Shown here in pieces: positions 25,478-32,314 of a stretch of 64,000 nucleotides of DNA (the first letter of the stretch is position 1; each line of letters starts with the position of its first letter). Under the pieces are notes generated by a model that was not told the origin of the DNA, made no database searches, and was given only the letters and a program-made list of their open reading frames with translations. A program made the position numbers and the translations under genes. Origin of the DNA: Ralstonia sp. SET104 (lineage in GTDB: Bacteria; Pseudomonadota; Gammaproteobacteria; Burkholderiales; Burkholderiaceae); contig NZ_BHVX01000015.1 of NCBI RefSeq assembly GCF_003851545.1, positions 1 to 64,000 of the forward strand, given 5' to 3'.

Positions 25478-25987
25478 TCACTTGCCCGCGCAGCGCTGCG
25501 TCTGGATCTGCGGCGCATTGGCGGCGGTGGTGGTGACGTACTGCGGCTTGCCGTCCTGCGCATAGATCAGCCGCAGCGGGCCGCGCTTCGAAAGGCCATC
25601 GTCAATATCCGCCTGCAGCAGCCCAGCCTGTGCCCATGAATCGCCACCGATGCTGCGCTTCTGCATCATGGCGGGGCGGTTAGTGCCCGGTTCCCAGTTG
25701 GCCTGGCGCTCCGGTACGTACCGGTTGGGCAGCGTGCCGTATGCGTAGAGCTGATTCAACGTATCAGCCAGATACCGCGCGGCTTGATCGTTGAAAGTCG
25801 GCAGCTCCTGGTTTCCGAGTTCGGTGCGGACGCGCTGAGCCTCTGCTGCGCAACTGGGTGCGGCATTGTCGGCTGCGCGGGCGTAAGACATGCCAATCGC
25901 AATGGCTGCGGCGGCAAGCCATGTCAGTGCGCGATACAGGCGGCGCGGGCGGGTGGTGGGAATCACAGACATCGGTTCGGTATGCAT
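25478..25987 (-). CDS. Secreted protein of unknown function in the DUF2589/lysozyme cassette
   Basis: I do not recognise this 169-aa protein. Residues 17-39 form a signal peptide (LTWLAAAAIAIGMSYARA), with mature start near ADNAAPSCAAEA. Two cysteines remain after cleavage, one near the new N-terminus and one four residues from the end (QRCAGK), suggesting a disulfide that closes the fold in the periplasm. The ATG at 25987 has GGAG upstream; MSVIP five codons later is an alternative. It is last in a four-gene minus-strand run behind a cytoplasmic-looking lysozyme, 34 nt away, so an inhibitor or partner role is possible but only inferred. Confidence 0.7.
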   Translation of the reverse strand: MHTEPMSVIPTTRPRRLYRALTWLAAAAIAIGMSYARAADNAAPSCAAEAQRVRTELGNQELPTFNDQAARYLADTLNQLYAYGTLPNRYVPERQANWEPGTNRPAMMQKRSIGGDSWAQAGLLQADIDDGLSKRGPLRLIYAQDGKPQYVTTTAANAPQIQTQRCAGK

Positions 25988-26021
25988 GCGAGCTTCTCCG
26001 TTGAAGTAACGTGCTTGTGAA

Positions 26022-26474
26022 TCAGGACAGGAACAACTTGCGCTCGGCCTGCCGACGTTTCGTCAGCCCCTTGAGCGGCTTGCCGCCAGCCTTGTCCCAC
26101 AGCAGGAATTGGTTGGCCGCGCCGGCGTAGTCGCCCGCGTTGAGCTTGCGCAGCAGCGTCGACGAACGCAGCCGCCCCGCCCCCAGGTTGAAGACGAACG
26201 ACGCCAGCGCGTCAAACTGCCCCTGCGTTATCGACACGCGCACGGCTTTGGCGATGCCCTGCTCGGTGTCAGCCAAGTCCTTGCGCAGTAGCGCTTCCGC
26301 CTGCTGCTGCGAGATGGGCCCCTTGAAGGTTTCGCCAGGGCGGATCAGGTGGCCGTAGCCGATGGTCGGCTTGCCCACGGCATCCAGATACGTCGACAGT
26401 CGCAGCCCTTCCGATTCCTTGATTAAGGCGAGGCCTTGCTCGCCGGTGGTGCGCGGGTTGTGCTCAGTGCTCAT
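26022..26474 (-). CDS. T4-type lysozyme (GH24 endolysin-like)
   Basis: Muramidase of 150 aa. It shows the exact T4 lysozyme spacing Glu22-x8-Asp31-x5-Thr37 within IKESEGLRLSTYLDAVGKPT, followed by IGYGHL and the C-terminal RRQAERKLF. No signal peptide or SAR helix precedes the domain, so it needs a holin, another exporter or cell lysis to reach the wall. The ATG at 26474 has AGGAG upstream and overlaps the end of the DUF2589 gene by 11 nt, which implies coupling. No phage structural genes are near, so it looks like a domesticated lysozyme. Confidence 0.9.
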   Translation of the reverse strand: MSTEHNPRTTGEQGLALIKESEGLRLSTYLDAVGKPTIGYGHLIRPGETFKGPISQQQAEALLRKDLADTEQGIAKAVRVSITQGQFDALASFVFNLGAGRLRSSTLLRKLNAGDYAGAANQFLLWDKAGGKPLKGLTKRRQAERKLFLS

Positions 26475-27222
26475 CGCGCTTCTCCTGGGGTGTGCCGGTT
26501 GCATCGGAGCCGGCGGCATGCGGCTGCACAGGCCTTGGCACCAGCCGATTCGTGTATTCGTCAATCAGCCGCATCACCGCCTCGGGCGGCGGCAGCGCGG
26601 TGAACTTCATCTCGATGTCGATGTGCTCGCTGTCGCGGCCGGTGTCACGCTTGGAATGCGGTGCAAGCGAGACGTAGAATCGGCCAACGCCGCCAGTGCC
26701 CTCGCCGTGCGCGGGCAGCGTCTCGGCGATGTCGCTGCGCACGGTCATGTTCACCGTCATTTCCTCCAGCGCCAGGCCACGCGGCATTGCCAGCGACACC
26801 AGCGGCAGCGCCAGCCGGTGTTGGCTGTCGAGCGCAAGCTCCACTTCGCGGGCGACCAGCGTGCCGCTGTCATCCGCGTCGAAGAACTGATCGAGCAGCG
26901 CGGTGTACTGCTGCGCAAGCATCTGGTTGGCAGAAGCGGCGGCGTGCTGCATGCCGCGCGTGATGTCGTCGAGCGTCAAGCCATTCAAGCCCGGATGATC
27001 GTGGCTGTGATTGCCGCCGCCCGCGCCGCTTCCAGGCGGTGATGCATTGGGCGGCGACGGCGGAGACGCATCGGGTGCGGCCTCAGGAAACGGCGCTGTT
27101 GCGGAAGGCGCTGCGGGCTGCGCTGATGCAGGCGGCACCCTCACGGCGGGCGCCGATGGTGGGGCAGGCGTTGACGACGCTCGGTCGTCATCACGCCGGC
27201 GGCGGCTGAAGAGTTTGAACAT
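26464..27222 (-). CDS. DUF2589-family protein with a proline-rich N-terminus
   Basis: The 252-aa protein starts with a basic stretch (MFKLFSRRRRDDDR), then about 55 residues rich in Pro, Ala and Ser and a GGGNHSHDH segment. From about residue 78 (NGLTLDDITRGM) it resembles DUF2589: AASANQMLAQQYTALLDQFF, then ALPLVSLAMPRGLALEEMTVNMTV and an HIDIEMKFTALPPPEAVMRLID strand. It is a paralogue of the next gene upstream; the shared elements are the Gln-Ala rich helix and the Pro-x-Glu-Ala-x-Met-Arg motif. Function unknown. It is 110 nt after its paralogue and overlaps the lysozyme gene. Confidence 0.8.
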   Translation of the reverse strand: MFKLFSRRRRDDDRASSTPAPPSAPAVRVPPASAQPAAPSATAPFPEAAPDASPPSPPNASPPGSGAGGGNHSHDHPGLNGLTLDDITRGMQHAAASANQMLAQQYTALLDQFFDADDSGTLVAREVELALDSQHRLALPLVSLAMPRGLALEEMTVNMTVRSDIAETLPAHGEGTGGVGRFYVSLAPHSKRDTGRDSEHIDIEMKFTALPPPEAVMRLIDEYTNRLVPRPVQPHAAGSDATGTPQEKRDEH

Positions 27223-27332
27223 GGTGTCGGGTCGGTCGGGTCGATCAGATCAACAGGCGGCGCGCGGCAAGGCGCGCACCGATCAGGACACCGGCCGTGG
27301 GGAGCCCGGCCGGCGTTCATTGCCTTGGCTGC

Positions 27333-28001
27333 TTAGGGGTTGGCAGGGGCCGGGGCTGGTGCGTTACCACCCGACGGCACCTTCTCGCCGACCATCGTGC
27401 CGTCGGTCGGCGTGGCGGGCAGCGGCTTGACGTCCTTCTCCTTGCCCTTGACGACCACCGGTTTGGTTGCCGCGTCAGTCAAGAACTCCATCACGCGCAT
27501 CAGTGCTTCCGGCGGGTTCTGGCGCTTGACCTGGGTATGGAACGAGTACTTGGCACGCGTATCGGTGCTGCGCGTCTGTTCAGACTTGTGCGAGGCTCGG
27601 CCCGACACAGACACGCTGAACGGCCCCCAGCCGAGCTTGGCCTGGAACGACCCTTCCGCCTCGGTGCTGGACGACGATTTCTCCGACTGCGAAATCTCCA
27701 GCTCGAAGTCGATCGTACCTTCTTCGATGGCGATTACCGGATGCACAACCGCGCACAGCAGCGGAATACGCATGGTCTTCTGAATCGTGCCCTGCGACAC
27801 ACCCTGCTCATCGACCAGGGTTTCGTCGTAATCAAACTGCACGGCAACCGCCTTGCCGTTCTGAATACACACCTGCAGCAGAAAATCTGCATAGGATTTT
27901 GCCGCTGACGTTTGCGCCGCGATCATGGCTTGCAGCGGCGCGGAGATCATCTTGTCGATCGGCAGCGCATTGATAACCGATCCGATAAATCCGGTGTCCA
28001 T
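27333..28001 (-). CDS. DUF2589-family protein
   Basis: The 222-aa protein resembles the DUF2589 family. An N-terminal helical part (LPIDKMISAPLQAMIAAQTSAAKSYADFLLQVCI) is followed by a beta-rich domain: IPLLCAVVHPVIAIEEGTIDFELEIS, a Ser-rich loop (EKSSSSTEAE), GWGPFSVSVSGRASHKSEQTR, and NPPEALMRVMEFLTDA, then a Pro/Ala tail. No signal peptide is present. The ATG at 28001 follows GAGGAG. It is first in the minus-strand run leading to the lysozyme and is divergent from the LuxR-type gene. Function is not established for the family. Confidence 0.82.
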   Translation of the reverse strand: MDTGFIGSVINALPIDKMISAPLQAMIAAQTSAAKSYADFLLQVCIQNGKAVAVQFDYDETLVDEQGVSQGTIQKTMRIPLLCAVVHPVIAIEEGTIDFELEISQSEKSSSSTEAEGSFQAKLGWGPFSVSVSGRASHKSEQTRSTDTRAKYSFHTQVKRQNPPEALMRVMEFLTDAATKPVVVKGKEKDVKPLPATPTDGTMVGEKVPSGGNAPAPAPANP

Positions 28002-28030
28002 TTAAAACTCCTCACATTGAATTATTTGGA

Positions 28031-28046
28031 CGCACAGGCCTGTGCG
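28031..28046. promoter_or_regulatory. 16-bp perfect palindrome upstream of the DUF2589 operon
   Basis: CGCACAGGCCTGTGCG is fully palindromic and lies 30-45 bp before the first DUF2589 start codon. TTTGGA (28025-28030) and TCCAAA (28053-28058) extend the pairing with a 6-nt bulge. A second hairpin, GGCCAC/GTGGCC, is at 28106-28123. Either could be an operator or a leader structure. Confidence 0.5.
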
Positions 28047-28141
28047 CCGGAATCCAAAGTAAGCGCTTTTTCTACGCGGTTCGATGCCTCAAAAGTCCCA
28101 GCCAAGGCCACGGAGCAGTGGCCCAGAACGTATCAATAGGC

Positions 28142-28159
28142 TGCCCGTGACTTTCGGCA
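28142..28159 (+). repeat. 18-bp motif, copy 1 (upstream of the LuxR-type gene)
   Basis: TGCCCGTGACTTTCGGCA matches the copy at 28926-28943 at 17 of 18 positions. It lies in the divergent region between the DUF2589 operon and the regulator, 91 bp before the regulator start, a position suited to an operator. Confidence 0.6.
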
Positions 28160-28249
28160 CTGAACTTCGGTTTCAATGCATCCGGATCGATCCCGCCCTA
28201 CAAAACAATCAGTTTCACTGAAAATAATTAACTGAAGTACGAGGGGTCG

Positions 28250-28909
28250 ATGAATATTCTTGTAATCGATAGCTTGCCGCTTTTTGCGGCAGGTGTGTCC
28301 AATGTATTGAATGCACTCGACGCGCAGGGTGTGTTTATCGATACGCATTACGCTACGCAAATCGGACCGGCTTGCAGGGAAGCTGAACCGAGAGCCGTCG
28401 TGATGGAATGGAGCGCGCAAGACGACGACGCGCGACAGCGTTTGTCGGAGTTGAAAGCGGCGCTGCCCGAAGTGCCGGTCTTGCTGACCGTGCAAGCCGT
28501 TGGCCGGCACGTGGTGGGCGATGCGCTGCGCTTTGGCGCCGCCGGAGTGGTCGACCGGCAGGCCACCGCCGACATTCTGCTCGAAGCCCTGCAGCGCATC
28601 ACCTCGGGTGCGGTCTACTTGCCACCGATCAGCAATCTCTCCCCCGACGACCCGCGTCAAAGCTCGGGAGAAAGCCCGGCCGAGCTCTGGCGCCGTCTCA
28701 CACCGCGACAGCATGAGGTGCTGCAACTGCTTGCAGAAGGCAAATCCAACAAGCAAATCTGCCGCGTGCTGAACGTGGCGGAGGGCACGATCAAAAACCA
28801 TCTGTACGCCTTGTTCCGGCAAATTGGCGTCAACAACCGCACCGAGGCTGCGCTCTGGCTCTCACGCTGCAGGGCGAGCCTCGTCCGCCTGCAGATGTGC
28901 GCGATATAG
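28250..28909 (+). CDS. LuxR/NarL-type response regulator with a degenerate receiver
   Basis: The 219-aa protein has a receiver-like N-terminus and a NarL-type helix-turn-helix (about 150-206: LTPRQHEVLQLLAEGKSNKQI, then VAEGTIKNHLYALFRQIGVNNRTEAA). The receiver lacks key residues: only one Asp remains in the acidic pair (VIDSLP), the phosphoacceptor position carries Glu53 (VVMEW), and the conserved Lys is replaced in GVVDRQ. Phosphorylation is therefore unlikely, and Glu may mimic the active state. The ATG at 28250 has AGGGG upstream. It is divergent from the DUF2589 operon and flanked by two copies of an 18-bp motif. Confidence 0.88.
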   Translation: MNILVIDSLPLFAAGVSNVLNALDAQGVFIDTHYATQIGPACREAEPRAVVMEWSAQDDDARQRLSELKAALPEVPVLLTVQAVGRHVVGDALRFGAAGVVDRQATADILLEALQRITSGAVYLPPISNLSPDDPRQSSGESPAELWRRLTPRQHEVLQLLAEGKSNKQICRVLNVAEGTIKNHLYALFRQIGVNNRTEAALWLSRCRASLVRLQMCAI

Positions 28910-29466: not shown

Positions 29467-31026
29467 CTAGTCAGGCTTGCATTCGTGCTTCATCTCGCGT
29501 CGCCCATCTTCGTAGACCACCTCCAGCCGGCACGTAAAGCCCCACAGGCGCACAACGTGCCGGAGCATCTCTTCGTAGTTGGGCCCCAGAGGCCGGCGGC
29601 TGCTTTGCAAGTGACGCAGCGTCATTGAGCGATCGCCTCCCACATCAACGTTCGTCACCTGGATATTGGGCTCGATGTTTGACAGGTCGTACTGCCCTGC
29701 CAGCAACTCGCGGATCTTGCGATAACCGTCATCGTCGTGGATCGCGGTGACGCGCAGCTTGGCATCACGGTCGTCATCCAGCACGGAGAACAGCTTCAAC
29801 TCGCGGATCACGCGCGGCGAAAGGAACTGCAGCAGGAAGCTCTCGTCCTTGAAGTTGCGCATGGCAAAGTCGAGCGTCGTCTGCCAATCGCTGCCGGCAA
29901 TTTCGGGCGCCCAGCGGTAGTCCTCTTCTTCGGGCGATTCGCAGATGCGGCGGATGTCCTGGAACATCAGGAAACCCAGCGTGTACGGGTTCAGGCCGCT
30001 GTAGTAGGGGCTGTTGAACGGCGGCTGATAGATCACGTTGGTGTGCGCCTGCAGCAGTTCGAGCATGAACGCATCGTTGACGAGCTTCTCGTCGTACAGC
30101 TTGTGCAGGATGGTGTAATGCCAGAACGTGGCCCAGCCCTCGTTCATCACCTTGGTCTGCCGCTGCGGATAAAAGTACTGCGCGATCTTGCGCACGATGC
30201 GCACGATCTCTCGTTGCCACGGCTGCAATTTGGGCGCGTTCTTCTCAATGAAGTACAGCAGGTTCTCTTCCGGCTCAGGCGGAAATTGCGGATCGGGCTC
30301 GGGGGTGTCGTCCCTGGTTGCCAGCGCATGCGAACGGTGCGTGGGCAGCGTGCGCCACAGGTCGTTCACCTGCGCTTCCAGGTATTTCTCCCGTTCGGTC
30401 TGGCGGGCCTGTTCCTCATTGATCGACAGCTTCTTGGGCCGTCGGTACCGATCCACGCCGTAGTTCTGCAGTGCGTGGCACGAATCGAGCAACAGCTCCA
30501 CCTCCTGCTCGCCGTAACGCTGCTCGCACTCGGCCACGTAGTTCTTGGCAAAGAGCAGGTAGTCGACGATCGCGTCGGCGTTCGTCCATGTGCGGAAGAG
30601 GTAATTGCCTTTGAAGAAGGAGTTGTGGCCGTAGCACGCGTGCGCGATGGTCAGCGCCTGCATCGGCATCGTGTTCTCCTCCATCAGATAGGCGATGCAG
30701 GGGTTGGAGTTGATGACGATCTCGTAAGCGAGCCCCATCAGGCCGCGTTGGTAGCCGCGCTCGGATGCGAGGAAATGCTTGCCGTACGACCAGTGGTTGT
30801 AGCCCAGCGGCAGGCCAGACGAAGCATAAGCATCGAGCATTTGCTCTGCGGTGATGATCTCGATCTGGTTCGGATAAGTGTCCAGGCCGAAATTGGCAGC
30901 AATGCGGGCGATGCTTTGGTCGTAGCACCTGATCAGCTCGAAGGTCCACTCCGAGCCCGTAGATAGGTAGGCCATGCTCGTTCCCGTTGGTCCATCACAC
31001 AGGGTCACAGGTCGCGTGTTTGCCAT
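29467..31026 (-). CDS. spoVR: SpoVR/YcgB family protein
   Basis: Large cytoplasmic protein of about 519 aa, closely like E. coli YcgB along its length (LDTYPNQIEIITAEQMLDAY, IAYLMEENTMPMQAL, KVMNEGWATFWHYTI, NPYTLGFLMFQDI). The NEGWATFWH segment and nearby His residues recall a zinc-peptidase-like site, but its biochemical role is not established. It is the third gene of a module with yeaH (DUF444) and the PrkA-type kinase YeaG. Start choice is uncertain: ATG at 31026, ATG at 30975 (MAYLSTGSEW) or GTG at 31041; none has a strong ribosome site. Confidence 0.93.
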   Translation of the reverse strand: MANTRPVTLCDGPTGTSMAYLSTGSEWTFELIRCYDQSIARIAANFGLDTYPNQIEIITAEQMLDAYASSGLPLGYNHWSYGKHFLASERGYQRGLMGLAYEIVINSNPCIAYLMEENTMPMQALTIAHACYGHNSFFKGNYLFRTWTNADAIVDYLLFAKNYVAECEQRYGEQEVELLLDSCHALQNYGVDRYRRPKKLSINEEQARQTEREKYLEAQVNDLWRTLPTHRSHALATRDDTPEPDPQFPPEPEENLLYFIEKNAPKLQPWQREIVRIVRKIAQYFYPQRQTKVMNEGWATFWHYTILHKLYDEKLVNDAFMLELLQAHTNVIYQPPFNSPYYSGLNPYTLGFLMFQDIRRICESPEEEDYRWAPEIAGSDWQTTLDFAMRNFKDESFLLQFLSPRVIRELKLFSVLDDDRDAKLRVTAIHDDDGYRKIRELLAGQYDLSNIEPNIQVTNVDVGGDRSMTLRHLQSSRRPLGPNYEEMLRHVVRLWGFTCRLEVVYEDGRREMKHECKPD

Positions 31027-31051
31027 GGCACGCTCTGCCACCGATCAGCGA

Positions 31052-32314
31052 TCAGGCGGCACGCTTCTGAAACAGTTCGTGCAGCACCGGATAGATCTCA
31101 TCCGGCTTGAGGATGCGCTGCATCGCGAAGTTCTCGTGCCCAGCCTTCAACGTAAGATACTCCTCCCACAGGTTCTGCGGCTCCGTGGAGACCACCTCGA
31201 CATAGGCGTAATACTGCGTCAGCGGCAGGATCGTTTCGCGCAGCAGCTTGGCGCAGAGTTCCGAGTCCCCTGCCCAGTTATCACCGTCCGAAGCCTGCGC
31301 GCAATAGATGTTCCATTGGCTCGGCGGATAGCGCTCCTGCATCACTTCCGCCATCAGTTTGAGTGCGCTCGACACGACAGTGCCGCCGGATTCACGCGAG
31401 TGGAAAAAGTCCTCTTCGTCCACCTCTTTGGCCACGGTATGGTGGCGGATGAAGACGACGTCGATGCGCTCGTAATTCCGCTTCAAAAACAGATAGAGCA
31501 GCATGAAGAAACGCTTGGCGAGATCCTTGCGCGATTCGTCCATCGAGCCGGACACGTCCATCACGCAGAACATCACCGCCTGCGCCTGCGGGCGCTTGCG
31601 CAGCACGCGATTGTTGTAGCGCAGGTCGAGCTTTTCAATAAACGGCACGCGATCGAGGCAGGAACGCAGATGGCGCATCTCCTTCATCAACTCTTGCGCG
31701 CGTGCGGTGTATGGGCCGTCGTTCTCCAGTTCTTCGTTGTACTCCCGCTCGAGCTCACGCAAGCGACGCTGATACGGACTGGACAAAGCGATGCGGCGGC
31801 CGAGCGAGCTGCGCATCGTGCGCAGAATCGACAAGTTGGAGGGTGTGCCGTCGAGCGAAAAACCGGCGCGCACCTTGCGCACCTCCGCGATCTTGGCCAG
31901 GCTGCGCTTGGCTAAGTCTGGCAGCGCCATGTCTTCAAAGAAGAAGTTGAGGAAGTCCTCGCGCGAGAGTGTGAAGATGAAATCGTCTTCGCCTTCGCCC
32001 GAGTCGCTGGCCTGTGAGCCCGTTCCGCCGCTGCCCTGCTGCGGGCGGTCAAAGCTGTCGCCGCGAATGAACTCCTTGTTGCCCGGGTGAACGCCCTCGC
32101 GGCGCCCGCCCGAGCCATGGTGAAACATGGGCTCGGAGATATCCTTGACCGGAATGGACACCTGCCCGCTCTGCTCGATGTCCATGATCTTGCGGCCGGT
32201 CACCGCCTTGGCCACCGCACGGCGGATCTGGTCCCGGTAACGCTTGATGAAGCGTTGCTTGTTGACGGTGCTCTTGCCGCCACCGTTCTCCCGCCGATCG
32301 ATGATCGTGCCCAT
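31052..32314 (-). CDS. yeaH: YeaH/DUF444 von Willebrand A-domain protein
   Basis: The 420-aa protein has a basic N-terminus (VNKQRFIKRYRDQIRRAV), a low-complexity Gly/Ser/Gln linker (about 88-110), a helical middle and a C-terminal VWA-like domain with the MIDAS motif DVSGSMDES (253-261). In E. coli the homologue is co-expressed with the kinase YeaG and acts with it in starvation survival; the mechanism is unclear. It lies 48 nt after yeaG and about 25 nt before spoVR. Confidence 0.95.
   Translation of the reverse strand: MGTIIDRRENGGGKSTVNKQRFIKRYRDQIRRAVAKAVTGRKIMDIEQSGQVSIPVKDISEPMFHHGSGGRREGVHPGNKEFIRGDSFDRPQQGSGGTGSQASDSGEGEDDFIFTLSREDFLNFFFEDMALPDLAKRSLAKIAEVRKVRAGFSLDGTPSNLSILRTMRSSLGRRIALSSPYQRRLRELEREYNEELENDGPYTARAQELMKEMRHLRSCLDRVPFIEKLDLRYNNRVLRKRPQAQAVMFCVMDVSGSMDESRKDLAKRFFMLLYLFLKRNYERIDVVFIRHHTVAKEVDEEDFFHSRESGGTVVSSALKLMAEVMQERYPPSQWNIYCAQASDGDNWAGDSELCAKLLRETILPLTQYYAYVEVVSTEPQNLWEEYLTLKAGHENFAMQRILKPDEIYPVLHELFQKRAA

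Follow-up and report, generated by a model that had tools for sequence, protein, structure and literature searches.

In Yersinia entomophaga, type 10 secretion proceeds through the lysis of a subpopulation of cells, which releases cytoplasmic cargo, according to the available sections of two reports (PMC10847048, PMC10101115). The domain of unknown function DUF2589 (PF11655) is widespread, with at least 3169 proteins at E <= 0.001, and a single paper in the literature searched named it; the accessible text of that paper places it among unknown archaeal genes up-regulated on lactate and does not describe its function (PMC3949148), and PF11655 was named nowhere in the text available from that literature. 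Here we describe a cassette from a 64,000-nucleotide stretch of Ralstonia sp. SET104 DNA (the window, whose positions are used for all coordinates below) in which a pair of DUF2589 paralogues stands with a GH24 lysozyme, an exported barnase-related protein and a divergent regulator. Our preferred reading, to which we give a probability of roughly 0.42, is that these five genes form a regulated self-lysis and release cassette with interchangeable endolysins. Three elements of this reading are evident from sequence comparison: the absence of the cassette as a block, the selection acting on the catalytic residues of the endolysin and the interchange of unrelated hydrolases beside the DUF2589 pair.

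The cassette and its endolysin

The cassette comprises the following features (aa, amino acids).

28250..28909, plus strand: NarL/LuxR-type response-regulator-like gene, 219 aa, divergent from the operon; GerE domain (PF00196), E 5e-18
28002..28249, no strand: 248-bp intergenic region between the regulator and DUF2589-A, presumed to be a shared control region
27333..28001, minus strand: DUF2589-A, 222 aa; PF11655, E 4e-25
26464..27222, minus strand: DUF2589-B, 252 aa; PF11655, E 1e-13, residues 84-225
26022..26474, minus strand: GH24 (T4-type) lysozyme/endolysin, 150 aa; Phage_lysozyme (PF00959), E 9e-46
25478..25987, minus strand: exported barnase-related protein, 169 aa; Sec-type signal by inspection, family-profile match to binase/barnase

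Gene calls and Pfam matches agreed with the four minus-strand genes between 25478 and 28001 (DUF2589-A, DUF2589-B, lysozyme and exported protein) that a preliminary description of this DNA had presented as a unit, but the unit also takes in the divergent regulator at 28250-28909, which that description had left out. A lysozyme start at 26474 fitted a ribosome-binding site (AGGAG) and gives a 150-aa protein whose gene overlaps the end of the DUF2589-B gene by 11 bp. The lysozyme matched the PHROG endolysin family phrog_7 (E 7e-61), and its best PDB match was a chain named lysozyme (E 9e-43). Its catalytic triad, Glu22-Asp31-Thr37, is intact, and neither a signal peptide nor a transmembrane (TM) segment was seen by inspection and hydropathy. 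The overlap, the intact triad and the missing export signal had all been anticipated in the preliminary description. Across 51 aligned rows the Glu and Thr of the triad were kept in every one and the Asp in 50, with a single Asp-to-Asn change. Ratios of nonsynonymous to synonymous substitution rates (dN/dS) were obtained by comparing the window genes with 11 relatives (with 10 in the case of the regulator), and those of the lysozyme ranged from 0.016 to 0.138 in 11 comparisons, which indicates strong purifying selection. Nothing suggested that the lysozyme gene is a recent isolated insertion, the G+C content being 0.627 for the cassette and 0.628 for the window and the dN/dS values being low. 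In a set of ten hydrolases that included the one in the window, no TM segment was found by hydropathy and no export signal was seen. Because the TM hydropathy threshold of 1.6 also misses exported proteins (peaks 1.28-1.34), the statement on signals relies on inspection and on lower N-terminal hydropathy peaks, which were -0.32 to 0.92 in the nine non-window hydrolases versus 1.32-1.34 in two exported proteins.

Among 16 genomes of the genus, 12 carried both the DUF2589 pair and the lysozyme gene and 4 carried neither, and in each of the 12 the DUF2589 and lysozyme genes overlap or abut. At the rnhA site of all four cassette-less genomes the regulator, DUF2589-A, DUF2589-B and lysozyme genes were missing, the regulator and the exported gene having been sought in these genomes at that site only. 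The next conserved gene follows rnhA at 26, 45 and 67 bp in three of them, and a 79-aa remnant of the exported gene is found at the site in the fourth. Because the genes are gone together at one site in sister genomes, the five are, on this comparison, either lost or acquired together as a single block, with loss favored by the remnant that stays behind. Mantel tests of DUF2589-A against DUF2589-B, the lysozyme and the regulator gave r values of 0.64, 0.84 and 0.87, which none of 2000 permutations reached; these results support co-inheritance, not separated here from species relatedness. The intergenic region 28002..28249 was aligned across 11 genus loci; a consensus scan found no promoter-like site in it, and the promoter and terminator scan gave no decisive result.

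Hydrolases beside a constant DUF2589 pair

A genome-contig scan with DUF2589-A yielded 72 loci, 5 truncated and 67 untruncated, from Ralstonia, Burkholderia, Paraburkholderia, Trinickia, Kosakonia, Pectobacterium, Ewingella, Rahnella, Leminorella, Pseudomonas, Ochrobactrum and other genera. A peptidoglycan hydrolase lay within 3 kb of a DUF2589 gene in 54 of the 67 untruncated loci (GH24 in 47, pesticin-type in 6 and GH19 in 1), and the link between DUF2589 and a lysozyme seen in the window recurs across many genera and withstands the refuting condition set in the preliminary description. When close relatives were removed, 36 loci remained, of which 2 were truncated and 23 of the other 34 had a hydrolase. 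The 3-kb zones held 56 hydrolase open reading frames (ORFs; 0.102 per kb) versus 1 outside them (0.0013 per kb), as counted with models built from these same loci, which may miss unrelated hydrolases both within the zone and beyond it. The pesticin-domain muramidase was found in Pseudomonas alcaligenes-type loci, in two metagenome-assembled genomes (MAGs) and in one further genome, PF16754 being confirmed in L115, L141 and L180 and the other pesticin-type loci being called by model. In one MAG, a GH19 endolysin (PF00182, phrog_181) begins 28 bp after DUF2589-B. Hydrolases also accompanied 4 of 14 more distant DUF2589 loci: a GH24 protein, an Amidase_3 protein, an M15 endolysin (phrog_465, E 1e-25) and an N-acetylmuramidase (PF11860) that sits beside its DUF2589 locus on a deltaproteobacterial plasmid. 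Two further genes were left uncounted, one for a 512-aa product annotated as peptidoglycan-binding near a Vibrio pair (no Pfam match) and the other a DUF922 gene beside L178. Lysis modules would be expected to show just such an interchange of unrelated, apparently signal-less hydrolases next to a pair that stays constant.

Both DUF2589 paralogues of the window scored above the curated Pfam cut-off (89.3 and 52.1 bits versus 23). DUF2589-A was the more conserved subunit, with dN/dS of 0.029-0.061 in 11 comparisons and 54-79% identity between the window protein and the first 27 listed rows of Burkholderia, enterobacterial, Pseudomonas and phage type. DUF2589-B gave dN/dS of 0.14-0.20 and begins with a Pro-rich region of about 80 residues, whose length varies in the alignment. 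The two shared a locus in 69 of 72 cases, the other three being cut by contig ends, and they were adjacent except in ten Pectobacterium/Brenneria loci, where DUF2589-B lies approximately 1.3 to 5 kb away together with the lysozyme gene. By eye, an opposite-strand nonribosomal peptide synthetase (NRPS)-like gene parts DUF2589-A from DUF2589-B and the lysozyme in these genera, and more NRPS- or polyketide synthase-like genes follow DUF2589-A (NRPS-like loci L117, L119, L123-L126, L138, L148 and L149).

Other arrangements were also observed. In Kosakonia-type loci (L112 and L113, at about 9.2-9.9 kb, and L184-L186), a second GH24 gene lies directly upstream of DUF2589-A, in addition to the copy that comes after DUF2589-B. 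Six loci (L062, L064, L178, L181, L182 and L183) have two or three related DUF2589 genes, one of them a sister type that Pfam did not recognize in the two scanned; a hydrolase was near L181 only. Between or beside distant DUF2589 genes (L068, L175, L176, L177, L158, L156 and L157) stands a family of about 92 aa (KRI.VGN...GEHQ...YH.GFER, by eye), accompanied in some cases by another, third protein of about 120-180 aa. No relatives came up when viral sequences were scanned with a distant DUF2589, and no further DUF2589 genome was found among 78 genomes searched around one distant genome.

Relatives of the pair were present in 12 viral contigs, three of them Kosakonia-like flanks and nine others that were metagenomic phage (about six distinct). 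In all nine phage contigs the pair was preceded by one protein, which had a C-terminal TM segment in the member tested, and in seven of nine the next gene encoded a protein of about 200 aa that matched no family. A portal gene came after the pair in the one phage contig tested for it. The region between such a protein and the portal gene is a place where phage lysis genes can lie.

Regulator, exported protein and neighboring genes

The regulator contains a GerE-type DNA-binding domain (PF00196), and its Response_reg match fell below the Pfam cut-off. At the phospho-acceptor position the window protein has Glu53 and no Asp. Over 54 rows this column held Glu in 26, all from Burkholderiaceae cassettes; Asp in 17, including 13 rows of other enterobacteria, Brenneria excepted; Asn in 8, which are the eight Pectobacterium rows; Ala in 2; and Ser in 1. 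The dN/dS of the regulator was 0.033-0.099. Regulator-like ORFs of the same cluster occurred in 51 of 72 loci (about 8 kb away in L141 and L142), and a Mor-family regulator was found in Pseudomonas-type loci (14) and on two Vibrio plasmids. On the Vibrio plasmids L156 and L157, no more than about 10 kb separates the DUF2589 pair and its Mor-family regulator from genes whose annotation is large-toxin-like.

The preliminary description had proposed that the exported two-cysteine protein is a periplasmic inhibitor. When a profile of 29 homologues was compared with the PDB, it matched binase-type chains (E 1e-13) and barnase (E 2e-11 or weaker) over about 85 residues, and on account of this match the lysozyme-inhibitor interpretation was dropped as the leading one; no lysozyme inhibitor was among the PDB matches at E <= 1. 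A single-sequence Pfam match to PF00545 was obtained for 1 of the 29 homologues (E 5e-4) and not for the window protein. In all 29 homologues the equivalent of barnase Glu73 was a different residue (Ser, Gln, Ala, Leu, Val or Thr), and that of His102, read ungapped from a conserved strand, was not His in any of them; the Arg83 equivalent was Arg in all. A His was found one residue past the His102 equivalent in 2 of 29 (L094 and L097) and one to three residues past it in 5 of 29. Because the equivalents of the catalytic Glu and His are replaced throughout, the protein is predicted to be catalytically dead and is most likely a binding protein and not a ribonuclease or an obvious inhibitor of lysozyme. 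Cys46 and Cys166 are invariant within the family, dN/dS was 0.084-0.24, and no TM segment was found in the window protein by hydropathy. A co-encoded exported protein (clusters 5 and 11) occurred in 30 of 72 loci and was undetected in several GH24 loci, for example those of Pectobacterium and some of Burkholderia. In six enterobacterial loci (L106, L121, L127, L130 and L134, at about 12.3-13.0 kb, and L118, at 7.4-8.0 kb), the exported gene is followed by one for a protein of about 190 aa with invariant Cys-Gly and His-Trp and a papain-like layout; the family had no PDB match, and the one member scanned had no Pfam or PHROG match.

Several other neighbors differed by lineage. Downstream of the lysozyme, many Burkholderia-type loci encode an exported polyhydroxybutyrate depolymerase-like esterase and a phasin-like protein, both below Pfam cut-offs, as well as a 205-206-aa family without Pfam or PDB matches, which is present in as many as three tandem copies (L089-L091, L093-L095, L097-L100, L102, L104, L105, L054 and L070). 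In Pseudomonas alcaligenes-type loci (L107, L108, L115 and L150), a multi-TM protein of 173-177 aa begins right after DUF2589-B. In the window itself, minus-strand genes that we take to be SpoVR-like and YeaH/DUF444-like adjoin the cassette at 29467-32314, and a DUF1488 gene likewise stands beside it within that interval. The SpoVR-like and YeaH/DUF444-like genes stay in place in all four cassette-less genomes and the DUF1488 gene in three of them.

Proposed function, alternatives and known systems

We propose that the operon would be turned on by the NarL/LuxR-type regulator and that the lysozyme would build up in the cytoplasm without harm until the DUF2589 pair, as the module's constant component, lets it reach the wall. 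The pair might do so alone in Ralstonia and together with holin-like membrane proteins in enterobacteria. Some cells of the population would then burst and release their contents. For the barnase-related protein, a binding function beyond the inner membrane is predicted. Lysis-based release, antagonism and a developmental role had all been raised in the preliminary description; we infer the first, and positive evidence for antagonism with immunity was lacking. The proposal supplies a function hypothesis for a widespread domain, testable in one operon, and draws attention to regulated lysis cassettes in bacteria, which annotation based on holins would overlook.

Several results weigh against this reading. 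No holin or spanin was recognized in the cassette of the window, and the four minus-strand proteins had no spanin family match. Neither DUF2589-A nor DUF2589-B has a TM segment by hydropathy, and a membrane-active helix in DUF2589-A was considered and rejected, the hydrophobic moments of its N-terminal predicted helices being ordinary, which speaks against a pore. Two AlphaFold models of DUF2589-A (mean predicted local distance difference test scores of 60.6 and 69.7) gave no convincing fold match. Small membrane proteins of holin-like size and layout are encoded after the lysozyme in enterobacteria (cluster 4 in 21 and cluster 14 in 11 of 23 loci); their presence speaks for the proposal, but they had no holin family match in Pfam or PHROGs. 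In Burkholderia-type loci, a membrane-type protein (cluster 7, 16 loci) and a bestrophin-like protein (cluster 31, 7 loci) are encoded beyond the regulator, so the five genes may have a partner encoded elsewhere. In 13 of the 67 untruncated loci no hydrolase could be detected within 3 kb: nine are from Pseudomonas, three (L120, L129 and L147) are on short contigs and one is a syntenic MAG that bears the name Paucimonas; in 10 of the 14 distant loci, reading the ORFs and scanning chosen ones revealed none. Finally, DUF2589 is reported from an archaeon in the accessible part of the paper cited above (PMC3949148).

The main rival, which we regard as somewhat unlikely, is that the DUF2589 pair is itself the cargo, a cytoplasmic filament or particle that would be freed by endolysin-driven lysis with a holin encoded elsewhere. 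The pair stays constant while hydrolases and regulators change, DUF2589-A is strongly conserved and has no TM segment, and the two unequal paralogues keep together in 69 of 72 loci, all of which would suit such an assembly. Candidate payload neighbors, however, differ by lineage and the pair does not, which fits a machine better, and in phage contigs the pair stands between a protein with a C-terminal TM segment and, in the one tested, a portal gene. If the pair is cargo, it would constitute a new released assembly.

Within the self-lysis and release reading, a stronger version holds that the pair is a holin equivalent made of two soluble proteins, a widespread lysis machine that would release any endolysin, including the GH24, pesticin-type, GH19, amidase, M15 and PF11860 enzymes, and that it is used by phages and was domesticated by bacteria, under regulators of their own, for programmed release. 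We consider this version unlikely; if the pair does replace a holin, it would represent a new way of endolysin release.

A suicide or abortive-infection device, in which a cytoplasmic endolysin would lyse the cell early, as soon as a phage holin or other damage had opened the inner membrane, is in our judgment improbable. An endolysin without a visible signal and under strong purifying selection, a cassette without a recognized holin and a patchy distribution in the genus (12 of 16) are compatible with it, but DUF2589-A, DUF2589-B, the lysozyme and the exported protein had no PADLOC match; the helix-turn-helix part of the regulator alone matched, to CARF/CasR-type models. We think it just as improbable that the cassette remodels peptidoglycan, with DUF2589-linked export of the lysozyme opening the wall locally for an envelope structure in a cell that survives. 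Interchangeable wall hydrolases beside one conserved pair would be expected under such a role, but dedicated wall openers of envelope machines normally have signal peptides, none of which was seen in the ten hydrolases examined, and no envelope-machine genes were recognized among the cluster examples that were read, a systematic scan for such genes not being part of that reading. Inter-bacterial antagonism, with DUF2589 bringing the lysozyme into rivals and the exported protein conferring immunity, would draw on the intact muramidase triad and on the 30 of 72 loci that co-encode the exported protein but is highly improbable given the barnase relationship of that protein, the lack of a lysozyme inhibitor among its PDB matches at E <= 1, its nondetection in several GH24 loci (Pectobacterium and some Burkholderia) and a cassette without a delivery apparatus.

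Compared with described families, the lysozyme resembles GH24 phage lysozymes (PF00959, phrog_7) in sequence family, triad and size but is encoded in a bacterial operon with DUF2589 genes and a divergent regulator and has no signal or TM segment that could be seen. The two DUF2589 proteins are clear members of PF11655 by the family cut-off. The exported protein shares with the barnase/binase ribonucleases (PF00545) a profile match over about 85 residues and the conserved Arg83 equivalent, and it differs from them in the replaced Glu73 and His102 equivalents and in its invariant Cys pair. The closest parallel is with type 10 secretion and holin-endolysin cassettes which, as far as the available text of those reports describes them, are likewise bacterial, regulator-linked cassettes with an endolysin, and we infer by analogy that this cassette may bring about a lysis-dependent release of cargo as type 10 secretion does. 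Like type 10 systems, it has a dedicated peptidoglycan hydrolase, a GH24 enzyme with an intact triad; it was not classed with them because the cassette of the window showed no recognizable holin. In contrast to type 10 secretion as presented in those sections, the constant component here is the DUF2589 pair, beside which the hydrolase family differs by lineage.

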